Below, one piece after another: positions 28,300 through 38,397 of a stretch of 64,000 nt of DNA; the stretch's first letter is position 1, and each line of letters begins with the position of its first letter. This stretch comes from Pleomorphomonas sp. PLEO. Lineage in GTDB: Bacteria > Pseudomonadota > Alphaproteobacteria > Rhizobiales > Pleomorphomonadaceae. Under the pieces are notes generated by a model. The model worked only from the letters and a program-made list of their open reading frames with translations. It had not been told where the DNA came from and did not search any database. The DNA lies in assembly GCF_041320595.1 (NCBI RefSeq), contig NZ_CP166625.1:1437501-1501500 (forward strand), read 5' to 3'. The translations under genes were made by a program, and so were the position numbers.

Positions 28300-30858
28300 C
28301 TAGCAGATGATTGAAATGGGCTCACCTCGATAGTCGATTGAAATTCCAGCGTCCGGCGTCATCGGTGACAGGCTGGGGCGGACGCGGTGGATGGTCAGGT
28401 GACGGACCTTGGGAGCACCGGGGTAGGTTCCCCGGCATTCGCCGATGTGAAGGGTGCTGTTGGCGTCGTCCCAGTGAACCGAAACGCGGGCGCACTCGCC
28501 GCGCTGGTAGCCTAGGCTGAGGCCGTCGTCCTCGTAGAGTTCTAAGTCACCGTCGCAGCCGGGGAAGACGTAGATTTCCAGCGTGTCGTTGACCATGCCG
28601 GCGGTCGATTGCCTGACCGGCGCGAGCGGAAGGATGCTGCCGGCCCTGGCATGAAGCGGGATGCGATCGAGCGGGCTCGGGATGTCGTGCACGCGGCCGC
28701 CCAGCCGGTTCTCGCCGGTCCAAATGTCGAACCAGCCTCCCGTGGTTTCAGGCAGATAGACCGGCCAGGTTTCCACGCCGGCCGCCAGGACTGGGGCAAC
28801 GTGCAGCGCTTTGCCGAACATGTAGCTGTGGACTTCGTCGAGCGCTCGTTGGTCGTCTGGGAAGTCGAACACCAGCGGCCGCATCATCGGAATTCCAGCC
28901 TCCGCCACCTCCGCGGCCGTGCCGTAGATATAGGGCAGCAAGCGATAGCGGAGTTCGAGATAGGCCCTTGAGACCGTCTCCACCTTGTCGCCATAGCGCC
29001 AGAACTCGGTGTCGGTCTCAAAGCCGTGGACGCGCTGCATCGGCAGGAACGTCGCGTACTGGAACCACCTGAGGAACCGTTCGCCATAGGCGGGGTCGGC
29101 ATATTGGCCGGGGCCGGGGCGGAAGAAGCCGCCGGCGTCCACCGTCCAATAGGCATAGCCTGATGCCGCCATGTTGAGGCCGGCGGCGATCTGGTTGCCG
29201 AGCGTCGCCCAATCGTTGCCGACATCGCCGGACCAGGTGAAGGCCGGGTAGCGCTGCTGGCCGAGGAAGGCGCTGCGCGTCAGGATCAGCGCGCGGGTAT
29301 CCGGCAAGGCGGACTGCCAGGACTTGGACACGGCGCGGGTGACTTCGAGGGGATAGGCCAGCTGGACGTGTTCGCCCCGACCGGCCGCCGTCATCCGGCC
29401 CACGAGATCGTCGTTCTCCGGTTCGGTGGCGTCCTGCCACCAGGCGTCGATGCCGAAGCGTCTCAGTCGCTGTTCCTGCTCACTGGCGTAGAAGGTGGCG
29501 GCGTCCGGATTGAAGAAATCGACCCAGTCGGTGCCGGCGATGAAATAGCCGCGACGGTCGAATTCCTGGCCGAGTTCGGACGACGGATCGATACGCGCCC
29601 AGACCGACAGCATGAAGCGGGCGTCGCGCTTGTGAACTTCGTCGATCAGCTGTTTCGGGTCGGGGTAGTGGGCCTCGTCGAAGCGCATGGCATTCCAGCC
29701 ATGCGACCCCCAGTATTGCCAGTCCTGCACGATGACATCGAGCGGCAGGCGTCGCCGCCGGAACTCGTCGAGCGTGTCGATGATCTCGGCTGAGGAATGG
29801 AAGCGCTCGCGACAATGGACATAGCCGAAGGCCCAGAGCGGCAGCATCGGAGTCGCGCCGAGCAGCTGACGATAGCCACCCATCACCTCGGCGGCGCTCG
29901 GGCCGGCGATGATCACATAGTCGATGGCACTGGCGACCGGCGAGCGCCAGACCGTGCGGTCAGTGACCGGACCGTAGAAGAGCGTTGGCTCGTCGGTGTC
30001 GTTGGCCTCCACCCTGACCAGATGCTTTCCGGCCGTGAGATCGGCAAAAAAGCTCGTCGTCGGCGGGAGCCAGAAGTTGTCGTAATCGGCGTATGTGTGG
30101 CCGTCGATCTCGACGCGATAGCGCGTGCCCATCTTCTTGTTGATGTCGAGCTGTATCGCCTGACGGCCGGCCGTCGCGACGTCGATCTCGCCTTCGAACA
30201 GCGCCATCCGCCGCTCGACCTCGGCCCCGCCGGAGGACGTCGTCACGGTCGCAACCTGCGTCTGTCCGCTCGAGCGTTTCACCAGATCGATCCGATGCGG
30301 CGGCGGGTTGAGTTCGCTCTGGCCGCGATGGTGCCAGATCAGCCCATAGCCATGGCTGGATAGTAGGAAGGGCAGGCTGATCTGGGTGTTGACCTGGGTG
30401 AGGCGTCGCGGCAGGCCGCGCAGGTTGAGGGCGCCGTCCTGAAAGCAGCCGGTACCGAAGAGGTGCTCGCCGGGAGGGGAGTCGAAAGCCTGCTCGGCGA
30501 TGTGGATGGCTTCATCGCCGAGCCATCCCGGCGTCAGGCTGCGCTCGGCGTCGGCTTCCGCCAGTAAAAGAGCGCCGTCTCGCCCGAAGAAGCGCAGGCG
30601 GCCGGTGGCCTCCGTCACCTCGCAGCGAAGGTGCGGCAGCTCCAGGCTGGTGACGCCGCCCGCTGTTTTGAAAGACGCCGCGACCGGCGGCAGATCCTCC
30701 ATCAGGATTCCACCGGGCATCCCCGCGTCATGCCCGGCCGGCGCGAAGCGGACCCGAAAGGCTCGCTCGCTGACGGCCGTGACGGAAAGCACCCCGCCGG
30801 GATAAGCCTGAGTGAAGTCAGGCGCGTTGGATAGGGTCGAAGGAGTGCTTTTGGTCAT
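28300..30858 (-). CDS. Glycoside hydrolase family 31 (alpha-xylosidase/alpha-glucosidase) with PA14-like insert
   Basis: This 852-residue enzyme retains the GH31 catalytic pair: nucleophile Asp476 in WWQDATEPEN and acid/base Asp545 in TWSGDVGNDW. Upstream features are the N-terminal beta-sandwich (1-215), a PA14-like insert at about 218-310 (KKMGTRYRVEIDGHTYADYDN, then AGKHLVRVEA), and the barrel start LPLWAFGYVHCRERF. The WWxDATEPE form and the PA14-type insert favour alpha-xylosidase of the Xyl31A kind, though other alpha-glycosides are possible. There is no signal peptide, so it acts in the cytoplasm on imported oligosaccharide. It is the last gene of the LacI-controlled uptake operon, 57 bases after the permease gene. 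Confidence 0.9.
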   Translation of the reverse strand: MTKSTPSTLSNAPDFTQAYPGGVLSVTAVSERAFRVRFAPAGHDAGMPGGILMEDLPPVAASFKTAGGVTSLELPHLRCEVTEATGRLRFFGRDGALLLAEADAERSLTPGWLGDEAIHIAEQAFDSPPGEHLFGTGCFQDGALNLRGLPRRLTQVNTQISLPFLLSSHGYGLIWHHRGQSELNPPPHRIDLVKRSSGQTQVATVTTSSGGAEVERRMALFEGEIDVATAGRQAIQLDINKKMGTRYRVEIDGHTYADYDNFWLPPTTSFFADLTAGKHLVRVEANDTDEPTLFYGPVTDRTVWRSPVASAIDYVIIAGPSAAEVMGGYRQLLGATPMLPLWAFGYVHCRERFHSSAEIIDTLDEFRRRRLPLDVIVQDWQYWGSHGWNAMRFDEAHYPDPKQLIDEVHKRDARFMLSVWARIDPSSELGQEFDRRGYFIAGTDWVDFFNPDAATFYASEQEQRLRRFGIDAWWQDATEPENDDLVGRMTAAGRGEHVQLAYPLEVTRAVSKSWQSALPDTRALILTRSAFLGQQRYPAFTWSGDVGNDWATLGNQIAAGLNMAASGYAYWTVDAGGFFRPGPGQYADPAYGERFLRWFQYATFLPMQRVHGFETDTEFWRYGDKVETVSRAYLELRYRLLPYIYGTAAEVAEAGIPMMRPLVFDFPDDQRALDEVHSYMFGKALHVAPVLAAGVETWPVYLPETTGGWFDIWTGENRLGGRVHDIPSPLDRIPLHARAGSILPLAPVRQSTAGMVNDTLEIYVFPGCDGDLELYEDDGLSLGYQRGECARVSVHWDDANSTLHIGECRGTYPGAPKVRHLTIHRVRPSLSPMTPDAGISIDYRGEPISIIC

Positions 30859-34361: not shown

Positions 34362-35420
34362 ATGCGGGGAATTGCCCATCTGGCTCGGGAACTCGGGGTG
34401 TCCACGGCAACGGTATCCCGCGCGCTCAACGGCAATCCCAATGTCAACGCGGACACGCGCGAGAAGGTTCTGGAGGCGGCGCAGCGCCTTGGCTATGCCG
34501 CTAACCAAGCCGCCCGCTCGCTCGCCCAGGGCGTCACGCGGGCCGTCGGCTTCATGATCGAACTCGATCAGGAGAGCACGGCGAGCACCGATTATTTCTT
34601 CATGGGGGTCGTCGAGGGCATGCAGGCGGTTCTGGCCGCCCATGGGCTCGATCTCCTGGTCCTGCCTTGCGCCAAGAGCCAGGACAACTTCACCTTTCTC
34701 CAGCGTTTCGTGTCGCGGGGCGCCGTCGATGGCATGATCTTGGCCGAAACCCGGCGCATCGATCGGCGCATCGATCTGTTGCAGTCGTCGGGTATTCCCT
34801 TCGTCACGCTCGGGCGAAGCGATAGCGGCAGCGGCCACTCCTGGATCGACCTTGATTTCGAGGGGGCGATGGCCACCGCCGTCGATCGTCTGGTCCAGCA
34901 CGGCCATCGGCGCATCGCGGTGACGATTCCGTCCGGCGATGCCAACTACGGGGCGATTTTCGCCCAATCCTATCGGGACAATCTCGCCCGGCACGGCCTC
35001 GAACCCGATGAAACGCTGGTGTTTCCGACCCATCGCCGCGAAGACGATGGCGACGCCGTGGTCGATAGCATGCTCGACCGACCCGACCCCGCCACGGCGA
35101 TCATCCTATTCTACGAGGTGACGGCCATCGGCATCTACCGGCGGTTGGCCGAACGCGGGCTCAGGCCCGGCCGGGATTTGTCGGTTATCGGGCTACGCGG
35201 AGAGGACTCGGTGCGTTTCCTGACGCCGCAAGTGACGTGCTTCCACTTGTCCCTTCAGGACCTCGGGACCGCCGCGGCGCGGGCGATGCTGGCCCAGATC
35301 CCCCTGACGGCAGGCGCCTTCTCCTCCGGCATCGTGCAGTGCCGGATGCCGCTGTCCCTGGTGCCGGGCGAAAGCGATGGACCCATCTCTCTGCCCGGGG
35401 CGCCAGCGTCATCGGATTGA
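34362..35420 (+). CDS. LacI-family transcriptional repressor
   Basis: This 352-residue regulator has the LacI headpiece at residues 1-60: MRGIAHLARELGVSTATVSRALNGN, then the hinge-helix region NQAARSLAQG. A periplasmic-binding-type effector domain follows. It is divergent from the binding protein-permease-GH31 operon, with two identical-core operators between them, so it almost certainly controls that operon and itself. The inducer is expected to be the imported glycoside or its product. The extreme N-terminus is slightly short for the family, but no better upstream start was found. Confidence 0.92.
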   Translation: MRGIAHLARELGVSTATVSRALNGNPNVNADTREKVLEAAQRLGYAANQAARSLAQGVTRAVGFMIELDQESTASTDYFFMGVVEGMQAVLAAHGLDLLVLPCAKSQDNFTFLQRFVSRGAVDGMILAETRRIDRRIDLLQSSGIPFVTLGRSDSGSGHSWIDLDFEGAMATAVDRLVQHGHRRIAVTIPSGDANYGAIFAQSYRDNLARHGLEPDETLVFPTHRREDDGDAVVDSMLDRPDPATAIILFYEVTAIGIYRRLAERGLRPGRDLSVIGLRGEDSVRFLTPQVTCFHLSLQDLGTAAARAMLAQIPLTAGAFSSGIVQCRMPLSLVPGESDGPISLPGAPASSD

Positions 35421-35464
35421 TCGGCAAGGCGCTCACCTGCCGTGGGACTGGCAGGCAGAAGGGC

Positions 35465-35598
35465 AAAAAAAAGCCGGGCACAGGGCCCGGCATTAAGTTT
35501 TGGAAAGCGATTCGCAGGGACGAATCGCACCTTCCAGAGGGGAACAGCTGAAGATTCGCTTTCGCCGGGAGGATGGCGAGGGAACCAACACATCAGCT
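35465..35598 (-). ncRNA. Candidate trans-acting small RNA (~134 nt)
   Basis: On the minus strand a -10 box TATAGA (35608-35603) precedes three stem-loops. The first is CAGCTGA / TCAGCTG, enclosing TCGCC-AUCCUCCC-GGCGA with a pyrimidine loop able to pair with Shine-Dalgarno sequences. The second is TGGAA-GCGATTCG / CGAATCGC-TTCCA. The third is the terminator GCCGGGC-CCTGT-GCCCGGC followed by eight U. The dyad TGCACC-N7-GGTGCA (35609-35627) sits just upstream of the -10 box. Three hairpins, CU-rich loops and size recall the alphaproteobacterial alpha-r sRNA families (for example alpha-r14 or AbcR types). Family membership is not established. Confidence 0.6.
35473..35491. terminator. Bidirectional terminator of the lacI-type gene and the sRNA
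   Basis: GCCGGGC / GCCCGGC has an eight-base A-run on its left, which gives a U8 tail for minus-strand transcripts, and ATTAAGTTTT on its right for the plus strand. Confidence 0.8.
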
Positions 35599-35933
35599 GA
35601 GGTCTATATGCACCCGCCACAGGTGCAAAACAAGCAGGCAAACTGCAAATCTGCTATGCAATATCCCGGTTAATTTGCCCAAACCGTAACATCATCGTGA
35701 TGATTGCGCGGATCATCGGTGTTTTCCGTTAAGGAGAAACGCGAGACTGGTAAGGGCGTCTGCCTACACGTTGACGATATTTGCCGGCTCATAGACCGTT
35801 TGGAAATTCGCTCCGGTGAGTCGGCTCGCATGGCTTTCGAGAGCCGGAGCGCAGCGGACATTAAGTCCGTGAGCGCCGGAAGCGCGGAAAGTCGGGCTCA
35901 ACGGCTGCCGGAGTAGAGTTTCAATGCGGACTA

Positions 35934-36824
35934 TCAGTAGGACCAGCGCTGGGCCTTCGACACCAGGAAATCGCGGAAGGCGTGGACGCGCGCCGAATTC
36001 CTGAGTTCGTCGGGGTAGACGAAATAGGTGTCGTAGGACAGCAGGTCGACTTCCGGGATCAGCTGCTGCAATCCCGAATCCTCCTCGACCAGATAGTCGG
36101 GCAGGAGGGCGATGCCGACGCCACGCTGCACCGAGTGCTTGATGGCGACGAGGTTGTTGACCCTGAGGGCCGGCAGGCGCGGATTGTCGTAGGGCCGACC
36201 GACGCTTTCGAGCCAGTTCATGTCGCGCAGATAGTTGGGCGCGGCGACGCCGAAGGTGATGATCCGGTGCTGGTCGAGATCCTCGATGGTCTTGGGGCTG
36301 CCGAAGCGCTTGATATAGGCTGGCGAGGCGAACAGGTGGAAATGCACGGTGAACAGCTTGCGCTGGATGAGGTCCGGCTGAGTCGGCTGGCGCAGCCGGA
36401 TGGCGACGTCGGCTTGCCGCATGGCGAGATCGAGTTCGTCGTCGTTGAGGATCAGCTGCAGCTGGACGTCGGGGTAGAGATCGACGAACTCGTCGACGCG
36501 CGAGGTCAGCCATGTCGAGCCGATGCCGACGGTGGTGGTGACGCGCAACGATCCCGAGGGGCGTTCGCGGCTGTCGGTCAGCCGGCCCTGCACGTCCTCG
36601 AGCTTCAGGAGCACGTCATGGGCGGCGCGGTAGAGCAGCTCGCCCTGTTCGGTGAGGATGAGGCCGCGGGCGTGGCGGTGGAACAGCGGCACGCCGAGAT
36701 CCTGCTCAAGGGCGCTGACCTGACGGCTGACGGCGGACTGGCTCATGTTCAGCGTATCGCCGGCGTGGGTGAAGCTCCCGGCATGGGCGGCGGCGTGGAA
36801 TATTCTGAGCTTGTCCCAATCCAT
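35934..36824 (-). CDS. lsrB: LysR-family regulator, LsrB/VtlR-like
   Basis: This 296-residue regulator has the LysR winged helix at residues 1-60: MDWDKLRIFHAAAHAGSFTHAGDTLNMSQSAVSRQVSALEQ (read in two parts). The effector-binding domain begins near 90 (GSLRVTTTVGIGSTWL). The ATG at 36824 follows GGGGGACGCG. Synteny with trxB, lrp and LPS-core genes matches S. meliloti lsrB, which is needed for oxidative-stress responses and LPS gene expression in nodules. The Brucella/Agrobacterium orthologue VtlR activates an AbcR sRNA. An sRNA candidate lies 336 bases downstream here. The gene name rests on synteny plus the N-terminus. Confidence 0.85.
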   Translation of the reverse strand: MDWDKLRIFHAAAHAGSFTHAGDTLNMSQSAVSRQVSALEQDLGVPLFHRHARGLILTEQGELLYRAAHDVLLKLEDVQGRLTDSRERPSGSLRVTTTVGIGSTWLTSRVDEFVDLYPDVQLQLILNDDELDLAMRQADVAIRLRQPTQPDLIQRKLFTVHFHLFASPAYIKRFGSPKTIEDLDQHRIITFGVAAPNYLRDMNWLESVGRPYDNPRLPALRVNNLVAIKHSVQRGVGIALLPDYLVEEDSGLQQLIPEVDLLSYDTYFVYPDELRNSARVHAFRDFLVSKAQRWSY

Positions 36825-37152: not shown

Positions 37153-38115
37153 TTACGCAACCTTTGTATCAGTTTCGAGCGCGCCGATGTAGCGTTCGGC
37201 CTCCAGCGCCGCCATGCAGCCCATGCCGGCCGCCGTCACCGCTTGGCGGAAGTGCTCGTCGGTCACGTCGCCGGCCGCGAAAACGCCGGGCACCGATGTC
37301 GCCGTCGAATCGGGCGCCGTCCAGATATAACCCGACGACTTGAGCCGAACCTGACCGGTGAACAGCGATGTGGCCGGGGCATGACCGATGGCGACGAACA
37401 GGCCGTCGGTGGCGACATCGCGCAACTCGCCGGTGACCACGTTCTTGAGGCGGACGCCGGTCACCGACGGCGGGAAGCCTTCCTTGCCCAGCACTTCGTC
37501 GACCACGCTGTTCCAGATCACCTCGATCTTGGGATGGTTGAACAGGCGATGCTGCATCACCCGCTCGGCCCGGAAGCCTTCGCGGCGGTGCACCACCGTC
37601 ACCTTGTCGGCGTGATGGGTGAGATAGAGCGCTTCCTCGACGGCGGTGTTGCCGCCACCGACCACCACCACGTGCTTGCCGCGATAGAAGAAGCCGTCGC
37701 AGGTGGCGCAGGCCGAAACGCCGAAGCCCTGGAACTTGTGCTCCGACGGCAAGCCGAGCCAGCGCGCCTGGGCGCCGGTGGCGATGATCAGCGCGTCGGT
37801 GGAATAGGTGTCGCCCGAGTCGCAGGTGAGCTGAAACGGCCGCTTGGACAGATCGACCGAGGTGACGATGTCGGAGACGAGGCGCGTGCCCATGTGCTCG
37901 GCCTGGGTGCGCATCTGCTCCATCAGCCAGGGGCCCTGGATGGCGTCGGCAAAGCCGGGGTAGTTCTCGACATCGGTGGTGATGGTGAGCTGGCCGCCCT
38001 GCTGCAGGCCGGCGATCAGGATCGGCTCCAGCATGGCGCGGGCGGCGTAAATGGCGGCGGTGTAGCCGGCCGGGCCGGAACCGATGATGAGGGCCTTGGT
38101 ATGGGTGTGCGTCAT
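37153..38115 (-). CDS. trxB: Thioredoxin reductase
   Basis: This 320-residue NADPH-dependent flavoenzyme reduces thioredoxin in the cytoplasm. FAD binds at GSGPAGYTAAIYAARA (residues 12-27). The redox-active pair is Cys136/Cys139 in SACATCDGFFY. NADPH binds at VVVGGGNTAVEEALYL, and the second FAD motif is GVFAAGDVTDEHFRQAVTAAGMGCMAA. The start at 38115 gives MTHTHTKALII. The frame stays open upstream, but that part is antisense to lrp. It is flanked by the lsrB-type regulator and divergent lrp, as in other Rhizobiales. LsrB-type regulators have been tied to redox stress, so the pairing is functionally sensible. Confidence 0.95.
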   Translation of the reverse strand: MTHTHTKALIIGSGPAGYTAAIYAARAMLEPILIAGLQQGGQLTITTDVENYPGFADAIQGPWLMEQMRTQAEHMGTRLVSDIVTSVDLSKRPFQLTCDSGDTYSTDALIIATGAQARWLGLPSEHKFQGFGVSACATCDGFFYRGKHVVVVGGGNTAVEEALYLTHHADKVTVVHRREGFRAERVMQHRLFNHPKIEVIWNSVVDEVLGKEGFPPSVTGVRLKNVVTGELRDVATDGLFVAIGHAPATSLFTGQVRLKSSGYIWTAPDSTATSVPGVFAAGDVTDEHFRQAVTAAGMGCMAALEAERYIGALETDTKVA

Positions 38116-38397
38116 GCTCGTCTCGTTGCGTTCGCCGGCCCGCGACGCGGCTTCGGCTGGACGCCGGCGGCGGCGTCTGGAATCGACTGAATGGTAGGTG
38201 TCCGGCGGAGCGGTTTCAAGGCGGTGACGGCTTGGTGGCGTCTTGCGCGGTTGGTCGTCCCCTGCCGAATGGCCTTCGAGCGCCGGCGGCGGATTTATAA
38301 TATGTGTTCGTGTCGCCGAAAGATGCTTTCGCCACGACGACCGGAACGGTATGTTCCGGCCCGAAGCGAGGGCTGCGAACCCTCCGGAGGATGCGAC

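Follow-up and report, generated by a model that had tools for sequence, protein, structure and literature searches.

What is encoded by the compact minus-strand unit that lies downstream of a LysR-type regulator gene in Pleomorphomonas sp. PLEO, and does the adjoining regulator control it? The unit belongs to the window, the whole stretch of 64,000 nt that was analyzed, and an earlier note on this DNA had put forward the idea of an AbcR-type sRNA encoded beside its likely activator. We identified the unit at 35465-35598 on the minus strand as an AbcR (alpha-r15) sRNA ortholog. The pairing of this regulator with this sRNA is already known in related bacteria, and the window adds a family member with the likely activator adjoining, an ordinary but well-supported finding that widens the range of the VtlR-AbcR pair to include the family Pleomorphomonadaceae. 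The useful additions are a corrected regulator site, the palindromic form of that site, a conserved DUF1127 branch and a regulator that is free of cysteine. The sRNA and its neighbours are arranged as follows.

34362..35420, plus strand: LacI-type regulator gene (Pfam LacI and Peripla_BP_3), convergent, a neighbour only, with about 45 nt between its end and the terminator of the sRNA
35465..35598, minus strand: AbcR (alpha-r15) sRNA, 134 nt with the terminator T-run (RF02345, alignment A1, model R1)
35473..35491, minus strand: terminator hairpin GCCGGGC-N5-GCCCGGC, followed by U8 at 35465-35472
35535..35547, minus strand: core CUGUUCCCCUCUG between the hairpins, containing aSD2
35567..35574, minus strand: first-hairpin loop AUCCUCCC, counterpart of aSD1
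35934..36824, minus strand: vtlR/lsrB, LysR-type regulator of 296 aa without cysteine (PF00126 and PF03466)
37153..38120, minus strand: trxB, thioredoxin-disulfide reductase, 5' limit approximate (TIGR01292, 403 bits against a cut-off of 343.45)

The first base of the sRNA, 35598, is a predicted +1 taken from the family model and lies 336 nt beyond the end of vtlR on the same strand. From 5' to 3' the unit consists of the first hairpin, the core, the second hairpin and a Rho-independent terminator. This is the conserved layout of AbcR1 and AbcR2 of Sinorhizobium meliloti, Agrobacterium tumefaciens and Brucella, with three hairpins, aSD1 in the first loop and the core with aSD2. Both anti-Shine-Dalgarno motifs of the family are present, a C-rich loop in the first hairpin and aSD2 between the hairpins. 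The aSD2 motif, UUCCCCUC, is identical to that of S. meliloti, whereas aSD1 reads CUCCUCCC in S. meliloti, where it is the tested motif of AbcR1/2 (PMC8844928). The region 35455-35610 folds with -57.1 kcal/mol, whereas shuffled versions averaged -37.3 (z -5.66), and none of 200 shuffles was as stable. Three terminator-like sites were observed versus 0.4 expected, two of the three being overlapping readings of the sRNA hairpin on the minus strand and the third a plus-strand reading. The stem-loops, the loop able to pair with Shine-Dalgarno sequences, the perfect terminator with its eight U and the distance of 336 bases from the LysR gene had all been described in the earlier note, and each was found where it had been placed.

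A covariance search had also been suggested, and the Rfam model RF02345 (ar15, the AbcR family) matched the unit end to end (model positions 1-112 of 112) with 37.7 bits and an E value of 1.4e-6. The gathering score of this model is 40. Orthologs in six of nine sampled Pleomorphomonas genomes scored 42.5-44.3 bits, while the cut-off was missed in three of the nine, the window genome among them. We take the second hairpin as the reason for the low score of the window copy: it is longer there than in the Rfam consensus, with 21 letters aligned to 4 consensus letters. Rfam at gathering thresholds gave no match over the whole 64,000-nt window, and such a search alone would thus miss the AbcR family here. 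In an order-wide sample, filtered so strictly that weak matches were lost, RF02345 matched 51 of 297 genomes, 20 of them above the cut-off, and it matched none of 14 control genomes. Our own model R1, built from alignment A1, which includes the window sequence, gave the window copy 150.6 bits and found one AbcR copy in the window genome. Another member of the family has a second, weaker R1 match of 38.3 bits (G019:C10:136570-136687), possibly a diverged paralog, and additional R1 matches of 27-29 bits were seen in G006, G009, G014 and G019.

DNA matches to the unit were found in 27 of the 60 relatives searched, including 14 of the same genus and 6 others of the family. TCCTCCC in the loop of the first hairpin and the core CUGUUCCCCUCUG are invariant in all 17 family rows of A1. 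The earlier note had named a lack of structural conservation in relatives as a result that would speak against the unit, and we found that the structure is conserved and covaries in A1. Both partners changed in seven of 29 named pairs, and pairing is kept in 96.3% of cells; neither value was reached in any of 500 shuffles. The paired cells, the double-changed pairs and cells, and the covariation score all lay above every one of the 500 shuffles; the number of further pair types was reached or exceeded by 445 of 500. When the alignment was slid (six versions), the closest version (+3) reached 6 double-changed pairs and 9 double-changed cells, compared with 7 and 19 in the real alignment. Hairpin 1 in its outer helix and the terminator in seven of its eight pairs never vary, and they therefore provide no evidence from covariation.

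Unlike the many Rhizobiaceae loci that carry tandem copies beside vtlR, Pleomorphomonas has one exact 13-nt core per genome: the core occurs once in 13 of the 14 genomes and three times in the window genome, in which two of the matches are stray. A match at G000:C1:1294123 (20-nt core match with 3 mismatches, 13 nt exact) was considered as a second AbcR copy or a target and was set aside as chance, since a second exact match is absent from the 13 other Pleomorphomonas genomes; RF02345 at its cut-off gave no match at this position. Read on the other strand, the 13 exact nt of this match (G000:C1:1294130-1294142, L029) are perfectly complementary to the AbcR core and lie in a gene leader; the gene downstream presumably encodes an Hsp20-like protein. 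At one further locus (L014, G011:C179, 1501-1641), vtlR, the core, the second hairpin and the terminator are kept, but the AbcR promoter, the VtlR box and the first half of the sRNA, on its 5' side, are gone. This loss is either a natural deletion or an assembly fault in a Pleomorphomonas genome that is 89% complete in 260 contigs.

The gene order also supports the identity of the unit. The published order in A. tumefaciens is trxB-vtlR-abcR1-abcR2 (PMC7486931), and in S. meliloti tandem abcR genes are described between SMc01226 and lsrB (PMC3712013, PMC8844928). The window sRNA likewise lies beside trxB-vtlR/lsrB, in agreement with the synteny seen in the earlier note. The window regulator is 99% identical to proteins of Pleomorphomonas carboxyditropha and Pleomorphomonas sp. 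JP5, and it shares full-length homology and the trxB neighbour with VtlR of Brucella and Agrobacterium and LsrB of Sinorhizobium and Agrobacterium.

We then analyzed the best 80 of 581 VtlR matches, which are 63-99% identical to the window protein. In 72 of these 80 loci vtlR is followed, on its own strand, by the AbcR core with at most one mismatch, and the addition of model R1 raised the count to 74 (L038 and L042 added). R1 at other coreless loci gave 19.2 bits in L047 and 22.8 bits, on the opposite strand, in L059; at E 1 it gave no match within L033, L039 and L066. In L054, AbcR has been relocated, with its box, to a position upstream of vtlR on the opposite strand. A second set of 24 core-bearing loci had vtlR upstream on the same strand in 20 cases, and in the other four (L019, at a contig end, L020, L021 and L023) vtlR was not within reach of AbcR. 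Two AbcR copies lie beside vtlR in many of the Rhizobiaceae loci among the best 80 of 581. Rhizobium setariae (L106) has three tandem copies downstream of vtlR.

The region upstream of the sRNA contains the following elements, with conservation counted over 24 aligned rows.

35606..35611, minus strand: -10 element GCATAT; CATAT in the -10 region of 19 of 24 rows
35608-35603, minus strand: TATAGA; kept in 11 of 24 rows
35609..35627, minus strand: dyad TGCACC-N7-GGTGCA; 9 of 24 rows, all Pleomorphomonas, have the two arms exactly
35629..35634, minus strand: -35 element CTTGTT, 17 nt from the -10 element; CTTG in the -35 region of 22 of 24 rows
35645..35659, minus strand: predicted VtlR/LsrB site GCATAGCAGATTTGC, -61 to -47 from the predicted +1; pattern in 22 of 24 rows

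Given the predicted +1 at 35598, CTTGTT-N17-GCATAT fits the published sigma-70 promoter consensus, CTTGAC-N17-CTATAT (PMC8844928). A strict sigma-70 scan found no promoter at the unit, so the assignment rests on conservation. The TATAGA hexamer that the earlier note had read as the -10 box is at its place, but the conserved -10 element is GCATAT. The dyad that the same note had offered as the binding site of the LysR protein exists at 35627-35609; we rejected it in that role, because it is not conserved beyond the genus, sits in the spacer between the -35 and -10 elements and overlaps the latter.

The likely VtlR site, predicted from sequence conservation, is 35645-35659 in place of the dyad. 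The published VtlR/LsrB box in S. meliloti is GCAT-N3-TG-N3-T at -61 to -49 (PMC8844928). In the window, GCATAGCAGATTT sits exactly at -61 to -49 and is one fixed letter off the published box, with AG for TG, a variant that occurs in 17 of the 67 full-score first-copy sites of relatives (loci among the best 80 of 581). We scored GCAT-N3-(T/A)G-N3-T over a span of 36 positions that precedes the core. Of the 72 first copies at these loci (again among the best 80 of 581), 67 reached full score, compared with 47 of 4000 random spans from the same loci, counts that are not independent events since the loci are related. Second and third AbcR copies had a full-score box in 23 of 36 cases. The two letters past the published end are G and C (66 of the 67 sites each), and C precedes (T/A)G in 66, so that the site forms a palindrome, GCAT-N2-CWG-N3-TGC. 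The many aligned sites thus sharpen the published box to a form usable for regulon searches. A study by Eisfeld in 2021 is said to have dealt with the same regulator. We do not put the palindrome forward as new; the terms "palindrom" and "dyad" are absent from the main texts of PMC7486931 and PMC8844928.

With the predicted sigma-70 promoter, the predicted box at -61/-49 and the place beside vtlR, the window locus resembles those of AbcR1 and AbcR2 in its upstream region as well. We consider it very probable that the unit is a single-copy AbcR gene that is activated by the adjacent VtlR via 35645-35659 and silences mainly nutrient-uptake mRNAs. By analogy with the homologs, VtlR/LsrB would bind the palindrome, centred near -54, and activate the promoter CTTGTT-N17-GCATAT. 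The transcript of about 130 nt, probably bound by Hfq, would expose two C-rich pairing motifs: the first loop holds AUCCUCCC, and UUCCCCUC lies between the hairpins. Through these motifs it would pair with ribosome-binding sites and silence the mRNAs concerned, chiefly those of nutrient-uptake systems.

Three other explanations were weighed. Because the unit is on the vtlR strand only 336 nt downstream of the gene, it could be an attenuator or the 3' UTR of the vtlR transcript and not an independent sRNA. We regard this as very improbable: the unit has its own conserved -35 element, -10 element and activator box, and AbcR occurs without vtlR within 1.5 kb in L020, L021 and L023. Furthermore, VtlR of A. 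tumefaciens is reported to bind the abcR1 promoter region (PMC7486931), and AbcR1 and AbcR2 of S. meliloti are reported as independent transcription units (PMC3712013). The chance that the unit belongs to another sRNA family, sharing with AbcR only a C-rich motif and a terminator, is close to nil. Rfam did return weak matches to SorX (23.3 bits), anti-hemB (23.7 bits) and ar9 (20.4 bits), but they cover only 35465-35543, the 3' half of the unit, and their cut-offs are 46.6, 49.5 and 45. RF02345 scores 14 bits higher, spans the whole unit and exceeds its cut-off in the orthologs of six of nine Pleomorphomonas genomes, and the locus has the abcR order.

A somewhat less remote alternative, although still an unlikely one, is that the unit is an AbcR sRNA that is not driven by VtlR, the adjacency having been inherited and another regulator acting, perhaps via the dyad at 35609-35627. 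Such a reading could draw on the window VtlR, which is without the redox cysteines of its relatives, and on the restriction of the dyad to this genus in the 9 rows that keep it. On the other hand, the dyad sits where the polymerase would bind, and its arms overlap conserved promoter letters. The predicted box is at the right spacing in Pleomorphomonadaceae and in cysteine-free, core-bearing Roseibium loci, and it accompanies AbcR even where vtlR is not adjacent (L054, L020, L021 and L023), which speaks against this alternative.

The missing cysteines raise the question of what the window VtlR senses. LsrB of A. tumefaciens has four cysteines, C144, C236, C244 and C273, for which two disulfides were proposed (C144/C273 and C236/C244); the protein was reported as a thiol switch, and a change of C273 mimics deletion for H2O2 sensitivity (PMC11975290). 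In contrast, a count over the 296 aa of the window VtlR gave no cysteine, and the columns that match the four LsrB positions, paired by a constant offset of 4, hold V140, V232, L240 and V269. Among 101 aligned VtlR sequences, duplicates included, 35 are cysteine-free and 59 have the C273 equivalent; among the 90 distinct sequences the numbers are 28 and 55, with 7 having other cysteines only. In a tree of these 90 sequences, which is unrooted, includes the cysteine columns and leaves out the VtlR of G015 and G017, 51 of the 52 rows on the Rhizobiaceae-Phyllobacteriaceae side have the C273 equivalent, as do the 4 rows of the Kaistia group. No cysteine occurs in the rows of Pleomorphomonadaceae (16), Roseibium/Labrenzia, Tepidamorphus, Propylenella and Faunimonas. 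Eleven of the 15 cysteine-free loci (among the best 80 of 581) keep the AbcR core downstream, so the vtlR-abcR arrangement is independent of the thiol switch.

Since the window VtlR has no cysteine, the thiol redox switch of Agrobacterium/Sinorhizobium LsrB, judged from the protein sequence, cannot work here, yet the predicted box, the promoter and the sRNA are retained. For the same reason, the input sensed by the window VtlR must differ from that switch. We give about even odds to the broader view that the VtlR-AbcR circuit is not redox-built. A cysteine-free VtlR in Pleomorphomonadaceae, Roseibium, Tepidamorphus and others would then drive AbcR via the same box in response to another input, most likely a small metabolite that occupies the effector pocket of the LysR protein. 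The thiol switch seen in LsrB of Rhizobiaceae would be a lineage-specific addition, or would have been lost here. The cysteine-free VtlR provides a natural control when asking which signal VtlR/LsrB responds to.

AbcR is reported to pair via aSD1 and aSD2 with ribosome-binding sites and to silence transport mRNAs (PMC8844928). The window genome has an hfq gene. We compared the starts of 41 solute-binding-protein genes, comprising 11 of 11 PF13458 matches and 30 of 52 PF01547 matches, with those of 60 control genes, comprising 30 of 50 PF00106 matches and 30 of 54 PF03466 matches. Gene starts were guessed, and 5 of the 11 PF13458 matches are below the family cut-off and perhaps not all solute-binding proteins. 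Pairing with aSD1 and aSD2 was stronger in the solute-binding-protein set (raw p 0.0035 and 0.018). However, these genes have stronger Shine-Dalgarno sequences than the controls, and when Shine-Dalgarno strength was included in a regression over the same 41 and 60 genes, the signal was gone (t -0.65 and -0.52). The raw signal of a target preference for solute-binding proteins is thus explained by the stronger Shine-Dalgarno sequences, and the proposed targets in Pleomorphomonas come from homologs only. The 52 SBP_bac_1 (PF01547) matches of the window genome seem to be a large sugar-type solute-binding set, as judged from this one genome.

The palindromic pattern was also searched over the window genome, where it gave 29 strand matches at 22 places, the abcR site included, compared with 5 for the reversed pattern, a control that is not a like-for-like null. 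Two of the other places were inspected closely. One of these boxes, at 29690-29704, lies inside an 852-aa reading frame. With 21 further places in the genome, at least one of them inside a reading frame, the motif alone is not specific. Another box, TGCATTCCAGACATGCA (G000:C1, 3198261), is 123 nt before a 52-aa DUF1127 protein (PF06568, 53.8 bits).

G000:C1:3197997-3198152 (L284, L269): DUF1127 gene, 52 aa, with the palindromic VtlR-type box upstream

VtlR of Brucella melitensis is reported to regulate AbcR2 and three DUF1127 proteins positively (PMC12595884), and A. tumefaciens VtlR is reported to bind the abcR1 promoter and that of atu1667, which is orthologous to two of the small Brucella proteins (PMC7486931). 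The DUF1127 gene would thus represent the other known kind of VtlR target, carrying the same predicted box here, and a box that abcR and a DUF1127 gene have in common is a further likeness to the VtlR/LsrB systems. The DUF1127 gene was detected in 13 of 14 Pleomorphomonas genomes, and in all 13 the box lies 121-127 nt upstream of the match. Regulator, box, sRNA and DUF1127 side branch stay together in Pleomorphomonas. In six other members of the family, the DUF1127 box was exact in two, had one mismatch in one and was not found at fewer than 3 mismatches in three. Over all 30 DUF1127 matches with a locus (of 31), the box is within 400 nt of the match in 20, in one of them at 265 nt. In G011 the DUF1127 gene is on two contig pieces, each of which has the box.
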